Position numbers and translations under genes: made by a program. The notes under the pieces were generated by a model. The model was not told the DNA's origin. It did no database searches and saw nothing but the letters and a program-made list of their open reading frames with translations. A DNA stretch of 64,000 nt from Thermus antranikianii DSM 12462 (GTDB lineage: Bacteria > Deinococcota > Deinococci > Deinococcales > Thermaceae): NCBI RefSeq assembly GCF_000423905.1, contig NZ_AUIW01000010.1, positions 1 through 64,000 of the forward strand, read 5' to 3'. Numbering within the stretch: the stretch's first letter is position 1; the number at the start of each line of letters is the position of its first letter. This document shows positions 31,673 to 34,262 of the stretch, piece after piece.

Positions 31673-32800
31673 TTAGCTTACGAGGCTTGGATCCAAGGCC
31701 GCGGCCACCTTTTCCTTGGGCAGGCTTCCCTGGACCACCTCCTTTCCCCCGCCCTTGGCCCCAAGGGCCTTAAGCCTTTCCAAAACCTCCTGCCGGCCGG
31801 GGCCCAGGGCGGCGAAGCGACCCTCGGGGGAAAGGAGCAAAAAGGTCTTCTCGCTCCAGGAAAGAAGCCTCTTGGCCAGGTCCCCCAGGACGGGAGCCGG
31901 CACCAGGAGCACCCGCTCCTCGAGGGCCCGGGGCAGGAGGGCCTCCACCAAAGCCTCCTTAAGCTCCAGGTTCTCGCCCTTTAGGGCGTACACCTCTTCC
32001 TGAAGCCGACGCACCGGTTTTTCCAGCTCCAGGGGGCTGGTGGAGAAGGAAAGGGCCAGGCGGGAAAGCAGGGCGTGCTTGGCATGGTAGTCCTCCAAAG
32101 CCTCCCACCCCGCCATGAAGTACACCCGGCTTCCCCCCTTGTACCGCTCCCACTTCAGGACCTTGATGGGGCCCGCCTGGGCACTGGTCCTCAGGTGGGT
32201 GCCCCCGCAGGCCGCCAGGTCAAAGTCCCCGATCCGCACCAGGCGCACCTGGCCCTGAACCTTGGGAGGCCGCCTTAAAGGGTAACGGGCAAGCTCCTCC
32301 TCAGAAACCCAAAAGGCCTCTATGGGGTAGTCCGCGTACACGGCGAAGTTGGCCAGGGCCTCCGCCTCCTGGAGCTTGGCCTCCTCCACTTCCTCCTCGA
32401 GGTCCACGGTGGAAACCGGGCTATCCAGGCTCACGGCGATGGTGTGGTACCCCCCGGCCCTGAGGAGGGCCTGGGAAAGAATGTGCTGGGCGGTGTGGCG
32501 CTGCATGTGTCGAAACCGCCGGTTCCAGTCGATCTCTCCCTCCACCTCCGCTCCCTCGGGGATAGGGCCGTCCACACGGTGCACCACATCCCCGAAGGCC
32601 TTGGCTTCCTCAAAGACGTAAAGCACCCGCACCTGGCCAAACTCCCCTTTCAGCACGCCCGTGTCCGCAGGTTGCCCCCCGGACTCCGGGTAAAAGAGGG
32701 TTTGAGAAAGCACGACATGGTGGCCCTGCTCATCGCTCCAAGCCCGCACCACCCGGGCCTGGAAGCGGGTGGCGTAGCTGTCCTCCTGGTAAAGCCTCAT
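31673..32800 (-). CDS. alaX: AlaX-type tRNA editing protein (alanyl-tRNA synthetase-related)
   Basis: A 375-residue free-standing trans-editing factor that deacylates Ser- or Gly-tRNA(Ala). The N-terminal beta domain has [13 protein letters not shown]; the editing site has the zinc motifs H-x3-H (HTAQH) and C-x3-H (CGGTH). A coiled coil (about 255-290) and a C-terminal DHHA1-like segment ([11 protein letters not shown]) make it the long AlaX form. The aminoacylation domain is absent. It is leaderless, from a promoter shared with the HEPN gene. Confidence 0.88.
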
Positions 32801-32819
32801 GTCCTTTAGAATAAAGAGG
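32801..32819. promoter_or_regulatory. Near-symmetric bidirectional leaderless promoter (alaX / HEPN)
   Basis: The whole 19-bp intergenic gap serves both genes. Plus strand TAGAAT (32807-32812) lies 7 nt before the HEPN ATG at 32820; minus strand TATTCT (32813-32808) lies 7 nt before the alaX ATG at 32800. The core TTTAGAATAAA is a near-perfect palindrome. Confidence 0.65.
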
Positions 32820-33239
32820 ATGGCACCCCTGGACTGGGAGGAATGGGCAAGATGGCACGCGCAAGCCCAGCATACCCTGGCCTCTGGGAAGCGGGACCTG
32901 GAGGAAGGGGACTACGACTGGGCCAGCTTTAAGGCCCACCAGGCAGGGGAATACGCCCTTAAGGGCCTGCTACGGGGACTAGGACAGCCCGCCTTTGGTC
33001 ACGCCCTGATCCGCCTGCTCCAGGCGCTGAAGGAAGCGGGCCATGAGGTCCCCGAAGCCTTGGAAGAAAAGGCGCGCACCTTAGACGCCCATTACATTCC
33101 CGCCCGCTATCCCGATGCCTACCCCGAAGGAAGCCCCTACGAGTACTACACGCGGGCCCGGGCTGAGGAGGCCCTAAGGGCAGCCGAGGGCGTTCTGAAA
33201 TGGGCAGAGGAGGTTTGGCGTGGCCTCGGAAGCCCTTAG
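32820..33239 (+). CDS. HEPN-domain protein (HEPN/MNT module)
   Basis: A 139-residue helical protein. Core features are ASFKAHQAGEYALKGLLRGLG split at residues 36-55 and GHALIRLLQAL (60-70), then an aromatic-rich loop (ARYPDAYPEG) before the last helix, typical of the HEPN family paired with nucleotidyltransferases. The Arg and His of the usual R-x4-6-H RNase motif are R52 and H61, spaced wider, so nuclease activity is doubtful. The MNT partner overlaps its 3' end. ATG 32820 is set by the -10 at 32807. Confidence 0.8.
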   Translation: MAPLDWEEWARWHAQAQHTLASGKRDLEEGDYDWASFKAHQAGEYALKGLLRGLGQPAFGHALIRLLQALKEAGHEVPEALEEKARTLDAHYIPARYPDAYPEGSPYEYYTRARAEEALRAAEGVLKWAEEVWRGLGSP

Positions 33240-33549
33240 GCTGCGAATGGCCGCCTGGGAGGCCCTCCTGGAAGAGGCCCAAGCCTACGCCACAAGGGTG
33301 CGGGCAACCCTGGGAGAGGCCCGGGTTTACCTTTATGGCTCGGTAGCCCGGGGTAGCTTCAACCTGGAAAGCGACATAGACCTCCTGGTGGTCTCCCCCC
33401 ATCTGCCGAAAGACCCCTTAGAGCGCTTCCTCTTCCTCCAAGGCCTCAACCCCGGGCGGGTGGAGGCCAAGGGCCTAACCCCGGAGGAGTTCGCCCAGGC
33501 CATGGCCAAGGGGGCCCTGTGGTGGCTGGAAGGAGCCTTGGAGCTATGA
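33220..33549 (+). CDS. MNT-type minimal nucleotidyltransferase
   Basis: A 109-residue DNA-polymerase-beta-like transferase: GSVARG (40-45), the catalytic Asp pair S-D-I-D (51-54) and LLVVS follow. It is the usual partner of HEPN proteins in toxin-antitoxin-like modules, where the transferase can neutralise HEPN by AMP transfer. The GTG start has the SD AGGAGG 7 nt upstream, inside the HEPN gene (20-nt overlap). Its own stop overlaps the rsuA ATG. Confidence 0.8.
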   Translation: MASEALRLRMAAWEALLEEAQAYATRVRATLGEARVYLYGSVARGSFNLESDIDLLVVSPHLPKDPLERFLFLQGLNPGRVEAKGLTPEEFAQAMAKGALWWLEGALEL

Positions 33550-34262
33550 GGGGGGAAAGGCTCGACAAGCTCCTCGCCCACCTGGGCCTAGGAAGCCGCA
33601 AGGAGGTGGCCCGCCTGGTGCGAAGCGGCCAGGTGCAGGTGGAAGGCCGGGTGATCAGGGACCCAGCCTTTCACGTGCCCCCAGGTGCCCGCCTCGAGGT
33701 GGACGGTGAACCCCTTGTCTTGCGGTGCCACCACCACATCCTCCTGCACAAGCCGGCGGGGTACGTGACCAGCCGGAGGGAAGGCCCTTCGGTCTACGCT
33801 CTCCTGGAAGGCTTTCCCACCCGGGACCTCTCCCCGGTGGGCCGCCTGGACAAGGACACGGAAGGGCTTCTCCTCTTCACCACCGACGGCGAGCTTCTCC
33901 ACCGCCTCACCCATCCCCGGCACAAGGTGGAAAAGCGCTACCTGGTCCATCTGGAACGCCCCGCCACAAGGGAGGACCAGGAGGCCTTTAGAGAGGGCCT
34001 GGTTCTAGAGGGCACGCGGCTTCTTCCCGCGGAGCTCTCCTGGGACCAAGACCCCACCCGGGTGGAGCTGGTCCTGAGGGAAGGGCGCTTTCACCAGGTA
34101 AAGCGCATGTTCCAGGCTCGAGGGAACCGTGTCCTCTACCTGAAGCGGCTCTCCCTGGGCCCCCTCACCCTAGGGGACCTCCCCGTAGGACAGGCCCGCT
34201 ACCTCTCCCAAGAGGAGGAGGAAGCCCTGTACCGGGTGGTGGGGCTTTTCACAGACCTTTAA
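33546..34262 (+). CDS. rsuA: RsuA-family pseudouridine synthase
   Basis: A 238-residue rRNA pseudouridine synthase. The N-terminal S4 RNA-binding domain (RLDKLLAHLGLGSRKEVARLVRSGQVQVEG) is followed by the catalytic motif VGRLDKDTEGLLLFT with the nucleophilic Asp, and RYLVHL and FHQVKRMF. It may act on 16S (RsuA) or 23S (RluB/E/F) rRNA; sequence alone does not settle which. ATG 33546 overlaps the MNT stop (ATGA). Confidence 0.87.
   Translation: MRGERLDKLLAHLGLGSRKEVARLVRSGQVQVEGRVIRDPAFHVPPGARLEVDGEPLVLRCHHHILLHKPAGYVTSRREGPSVYALLEGFPTRDLSPVGRLDKDTEGLLLFTTDGELLHRLTHPRHKVEKRYLVHLERPATREDQEAFREGLVLEGTRLLPAELSWDQDPTRVELVLREGRFHQVKRMFQARGNRVLYLKRLSLGPLTLGDLPVGQARYLSQEEEEALYRVVGLFTDL

Follow-up and report, generated by a model that had tools for sequence, protein, structure and literature searches.

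A putative 19-bp bidirectional promoter for two leaderless genes between alaX and a HEPN/MNT–rsuA operon in Thermus

Introduction

How are two divergent genes transcribed when their start codons are only 19 bp apart? This question is raised by a junction in Thermus antranikianii DSM 12462, located in a 64,000-nucleotide stretch of contig NZ_AUIW01000010.1 (hereafter, the window). Leaderless genes have been estimated to make up approximately 40% of genes in Deinococcus-Thermus (PMC3160421). In Deinococcus, leaderless TANNNT promoters have been verified by reporter assays and mutation, and the motif acts as the -10 element (PMC12340547). It is also known that -10 symmetry yields bidirectional promoters, usually with transcription start sites 18 bp apart (PMC12825309; PMC10268837). 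The original prediction for this junction was that a near-symmetric -10 element drives both genes as leaderless transcripts. Here we compared the junction across Thermus and are fairly confident that the 19 bp constitute a bidirectional promoter of the shared -10 type, lacking a -35 element and serving two leaderless genes.

Results

The minus-strand gene (31673..32800) encodes an alaX-family alanyl-tRNA editing protein of 375 aa with a Pfam tRNA_SAD domain and a partial tRNA-synt_2c domain. Its best NCBIfam matches were AlaXM and alaS, both under the cut-off. On the plus strand, a HEPN-domain protein of 139 aa (32820..33239; PF05168, E = 3e-30), with 1ufb (TT1696) and 1o3u (TM0613) as sequence relatives, is followed by a minimal nucleotidyltransferase (MNT) of 109 aa that overlaps the HEPN end (33220..33549; PF01909, E = 2e-9) and by an RsuA/RluB-type pseudouridine synthase of 238 aa (33546..34262; PF00849 and PF01479, TIGR00093 above cut-off). 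The rsuA start overlaps the MNT stop (ATGA); this third gene was left out of the original prediction, which ended at HEPN/MNT. The alaX ATG occupies 32800-32798 and the HEPN ATG 32820-32822. An in-frame ATG is also present upstream of HEPN, at 32799; it was rejected as the start codon. It is missing in four relatives (G018, G025, G004 and G015), and the ATG at 32820 is therefore the conserved HEPN start.

The intergenic gap (32801..32819) reads GTCCTTTAGAATAAAGAGG in the window sequence. On the plus strand, the hexamer TAGAAT (32807..32812), 7 nt from the ATG at 32820, is a candidate -10 element for the HEPN-MNT-rsuA operon; on the minus strand, TATTCT (32808..32813), 7 nt from the ATG at 32800, is a candidate for alaX. 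The sequence coordinates thus confirmed the predicted layout of a 19-bp gap with hexamers on opposite strands, each 7 nt from its ATG. The two hexamers have five base pairs in common, and the site is therefore TANNNTA, in which the conserved A of one hexamer pairs as the conserved T of the other. The discriminator between the plus hexamer and its start codon is AAAGAGG (32813..32819), for which relatives have the G-rich AAGGAGG, AAGGGGG or AAGGTGG, and that on the alaX side is AAAGGAC (32801..32807, minus strand; AAGGGGC or AAAGGGC in relatives). The discriminators of other Thermus leaderless promoters are likewise G-rich. The core had also been called palindromic, which is correct for an exact inverted repeat TTTA...TAAA (4+4 bp around GAA) and otherwise only loosely so: 10 of the 19 gap positions equal their reverse complement here and 12 of 19 in the commonest Thermus version. 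As for a -35 element, the best match to TTGACA was 1/6 on the HEPN side and 2/6 on the alaX side, and a scan of 32300-33700 found no sigma-70 two-hexamer site. The match to TATAAT is 4/6 only, with TATTCT or TATCCT on the alaX strand and TAGGAT opposite in most species. An exact-pattern search of the genome itself with ATGTTTAGAATAAA gave no match, the pattern having been mis-specified.

The junction could be aligned in 27 genomes, namely 26 Thermus genomes holding alaX and one genome of a sister genus (G071). The TANNNTA core was present in all of them, including those of T. scotoductus, T. tenuipuniceus, T. caliditerrae, T. altitudinis, T. composti, T. brockianus, T. igniterrae, T. arciformis and T. 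parvatiensis. On the alaX tree, the core columns T7, A8, T12 and A13 showed no change, against three to six changes in each of five other gap columns and zero to two in the remaining ones; as these genomes are related, the conserved columns do not represent 27 independent tests. The core was thus conserved where the gene order is the same, and the prediction of a -10 element shared by both strands at leaderless spacing was borne out across Thermus. The gap was 19 bp in 23 of the 27 genomes and 17-21 bp in the others, i.e. 17 bp in G015, 18 bp in G018, 21 bp in G003 and, if an in-register TTG is the start codon, 18 bp in G004. The plus start codon was located 7 nt from the plus hexamer in 25 genomes (exceptions: G015, 6 nt; G003, 9 nt). 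At the kept spacing, start codons varied, with GTG for alaX in G025 and, on the plus side, GTG in G005 and G026 and TTG in G004. The 19-bp gap also outlasted the loss of downstream genes. Such constancy of spacing under varying start codons points to selection acting, on either side, on promoter-to-start geometry.

To place the junction against a background, we used 864 kb of sequence (800 kb of the close relative G007 plus the window), in which genes were called by a home-made codon-usage caller. TANNNT was found exactly 6-7 nt before the start codon in 160 of 857 called genes, compared with about seven genes for each other offset. Both sides of the gap show this arrangement, with TANNNT 7 nt before the start codon. 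At the other leaderless promoters of the close relative, TANNNT was followed by A in about 30% of cases, compared with 27 of 27 genomes at the alaX junction; this would be expected were the opposite hexamer under selection as well. Of 22 Thermaceae genomes outside Thermus, 16 had TANNNT 6-7 nt before alaX, and in 15 of these 16 no HEPN, MNT or rsuA gene was found adjoining. Since the alaX motif is thus kept outside Thermus mostly with other neighbours, the alaX half of the promoter probably came first.

The plus-strand genes differed greatly in their persistence. HEPN and MNT were both full-length in only 10 of the 26 Thermus genomes (G000, G007, G008, G009, G017, G018, G021, G022, G023 and G025) and were decayed or gone in 16, whereas alaX, the promoter core and the downstream rsuA were kept in all 26. 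Elsewhere, HEPN carried a frame-shift (G001), was truncated beside a retained MNT (G004), was fused and shorter (G002 and G013), survived as remnants of 21-73 codons, or was absent (G012 and G015). If loss is irreversible, our own count on the alaX tree gives about eight separate decays; unordered parsimony gives six changes. Repeated erosion of HEPN/MNT was seen across the orthologous loci (L001-L026 and L149), and MNT outlives HEPN in G001, G004 and G071. In G012, rsuA starts at the promoter's exact ATG; in G015, its start codon is a GTG located 6 nt from the hexamer, and the centre of the core has changed from GGA to TCC. The junction had been proposed to tie a tRNA-editing factor to HEPN/MNT. 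This pairing does not hold, since HEPN/MNT is not a fixed partner: the invariant downstream gene is rsuA, which the promoter adjoins directly in G012 and G015. These patterns are most simply read as retention of the plus half of the promoter for the sake of rsuA. In six genomes (G002, G005, G013, G014, G024 and G026), the remnant is one frame running from the promoter's start codon to a stop that overlaps the rsuA start, and possibly serves as a coupling leader peptide; the deletion remnants of this kind at L005, L009, L013, L019, L023 and L026 comprise 27-188 codons and meet rsuA at ATGA. Coincidence could account for part of these in-frame remnants, as no such join is seen at eight further decayed loci.

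HepT-MntA systems are type VII toxin-antitoxins, and their HEPN motif is RX4HXY. The window's HEPN/MNT genes resemble them in adjoining each other and in the GSx10DxD motif of the nucleotidyltransferase, which is GSVARGSFNLESDID in the MNT protein and was conserved in 10 of 10 intact copies. No genome in the set had an intact HEPN gene without MNT, as expected of a candidate toxin-antidote pair. Unlike HepT, the window HEPN protein belongs to PF05168 (TT1696/TM0613 type) and lacks RX4HXY. The candidate motif is RTLDAHYI in the window, and its R is replaced by K in G009, G021 and G018; this HEPN protein may therefore not be a canonical RNase. The MNT protein also differs from MntA, scoring 27.1 bits on NF047752 (MntA) against a cut-off of 60. 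A toxin-antitoxin role for the pair is possible.

Junctions of the same geometry were found elsewhere. Among 112 divergent gene pairs in the 864 kb, four had a shared TANNNTA core at symmetric leaderless spacing, compared with one or none for each of five control motifs in the same pairs. Three of these pairs are loci of G007, and the fourth is the counterpart, in the window, of one of those loci. A second 19-bp double-leaderless junction, CACGAGGGTTAGCATAAGGGGTATG, was present in most Thermus genomes (G000:C3:33258-33282; L058:2059-2083). Of its two flanking genes, one is mannose-6-phosphate-isomerase-like, an assignment made by eye as it had no Pfam match, and the other resembles a bifunctional phosphoglucose/phosphomannose isomerase gene (PF18353 and PF10432). 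The gap at the third junction, CATGGGGTTATTCTACAGGCATG, is 17 bp; this junction recurs in Thermus (G007:C1:218303-218325; also G000:C2:164091-164113), flanked by a large membrane-protein gene and an L-serine dehydratase beta subunit-like gene (assigned by eye). In the 27 Thermus genomes, the 19-bp pattern gave 70 matches against 10 for the reversed pattern, the 17-bp pattern 158 against 4, and the 21-bp pattern 28 against 11; these counts repeat orthologous sites and exceed the true number of divergent pairs, since some N5/N6 matches are one-sided (those at 177855 and 1696078 in G007 lie between tandem genes). The one-sided control (left CAT versus left TAC) gave approximately 99 against 17 and 208 against 26, for which only the TAC rows are usable, as YAC in the intended control YAC...RTG includes CAC. 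The recurrent 21-bp (N7/N7) site was rejected as a divergent junction; it lies inside a coding gene in G007. The compaction of the alaX junction had been considered unusual. This was contradicted by the 17-bp form being about twice as frequent as the 19-bp form in the Thermus pattern counts, and by the second 19-bp locus in most species. The chances seem about even that these sites represent a recurrent class of double-leaderless promoters in Thermus and other Thermaceae, in which one TANNNTA core fixes the start-to-start distance at 17 or 19 bp.

Discussion

We infer two-way transcription and leaderless starts at the alaX junction from its sequence and conservation. On each strand, the single TANNNTA core would present a -10 hexamer to the housekeeping sigma factor, allowing RNA polymerase to load in either orientation. 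The same bubble region would be melted either way, with transcription starting at the start codon or one base earlier, and the geometry predicts divergent starts 18-20 bp apart, against the 7-25 bp that characterises bidirectional promoters of the shared -10 class. The minus direction would yield a leaderless alaX mRNA and the plus direction a leaderless polycistron ending in the RsuA-type pseudouridine synthase, with HEPN-MNT as a dispensable passenger between promoter and rsuA.

This arrangement resembles the bidirectional promoters of E. coli and Salmonella (Warman et al. 2021, 2026) in having a single symmetric -10 element with reciprocal -11A/-7T: A32808 would be plus -11 and pair as minus -7T, T32812 would be plus -7 and pair as minus -11A, and both are invariant in the 27 genomes. 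With the usual 6-nt spacing from hexamer to start, the alaX and HEPN starts would be at 32801 and 32819, 18 bp apart, which is the commonest reported spacing. A thymine at -18 is helpful but not obligatory for E. coli bidirectional promoters. Counted from starts at the A of each ATG, T is found on the plus strand (T32802) in the source genome and G023 only, with C elsewhere; the alaX strand has C and, unlike the E. coli promoters, lacks -18T. A further difference is that both predicted starts coincide with start codons, so that the promoter would be the whole intergenic region; the E. coli study had no leaderless constraint. The junction also resembles the leaderless promoters of Deinococcus-Thermus (Zheng 2011; Zhong 2025), a class common across the phylum in which TANNNT lies 6-7 nt before the start and the -35 element is dispensable. 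It differs from them in having two such promoters on opposite strands with one common core. Divergent promoters are not mentioned in Zheng 2011 or Zhong 2025, nor are bidirectional promoters in Zhong 2025. The junction is therefore best filed as the known bidirectional, shared -10 kind of promoter, the new element being its double-leaderless form at a conserved site, recurrent in Thermus.

Three other explanations were weighed. The core might be a one-way leaderless promoter for alaX, with the plus -10 a by-product of symmetry and HEPN-MNT-rsuA transcribed from elsewhere; the leaderless -10 of alaX probably predates the gene pair, and TANNNTA is symmetric, so that reverse-strand hexamers arise easily. 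However, the plus start keeps its 7-nt distance in 25 of 27 genomes even where it has become TTG (G004), GTG (G005 and G026) or the rsuA start (G012), the extra A required by the reverse hexamer is invariant here against about 30% elsewhere, and the scan of 32300-33700 turned up no further promoter-like site. We therefore consider a one-way promoter unlikely. The near-palindrome, with 12 of 19 positions symmetric in its commonest version and a possible toxin-antitoxin operon beside it, could instead serve as the operator of a dimeric regulator, such as HEPN/MNT acting on its own operon. This is quite improbable, because the sequence persists where HEPN and MNT are gone or fragmentary (G012, G024, G026 and others) and its symmetry is concentrated in the part required for the two hexamers. 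It is scarcely credible that the A/G-rich stretches are Shine-Dalgarno sites of leadered mRNAs and TANNNTA incidental. Although AAGGAGG, found in many species, is a perfect Shine-Dalgarno sequence, the stretch abuts the ATG without a spacer, varies (AAGGTGG, AAGAAGG, AAGGGGG and AAAGGG) while TANNNTA is constant, and has similar G-rich counterparts after the -10 element of Thermus leaderless genes generally.

With a shared bidirectional promoter as the preferred reading, two polymerases should be sterically unable to load together, because the -10 sites overlap. In E. coli, all five bidirectional promoters tested had too little basal transcription for the two directions to compete, and competition was seen only after strong activation of one direction (PMC12825309). 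The original proposal that mutual exclusion links tRNA editing to HEPN/MNT in regulation is therefore not supported.

The alaX gap unites symmetric -10 promoters and leaderless genes in the same 19 bp, where promoter and intergenic region would be one. Decay under a fixed promoter separates what is selected (promoter geometry, alaX and rsuA) from what is not (HEPN/MNT), and the case counsels caution when regulatory links between adjacent genes are read from one genome only. Polymerase competition on minimal promoters could be studied in a simple setting with the 17/19-bp class. In the 17-bp ATG/ATG form of this class, the A that opens each start codon doubles as the -18T of the opposite promoter. 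If the class is true, the same base pairs would serve as start codon, transcription start and promoter contact on the opposite strand, locking translation starts and gene order together.
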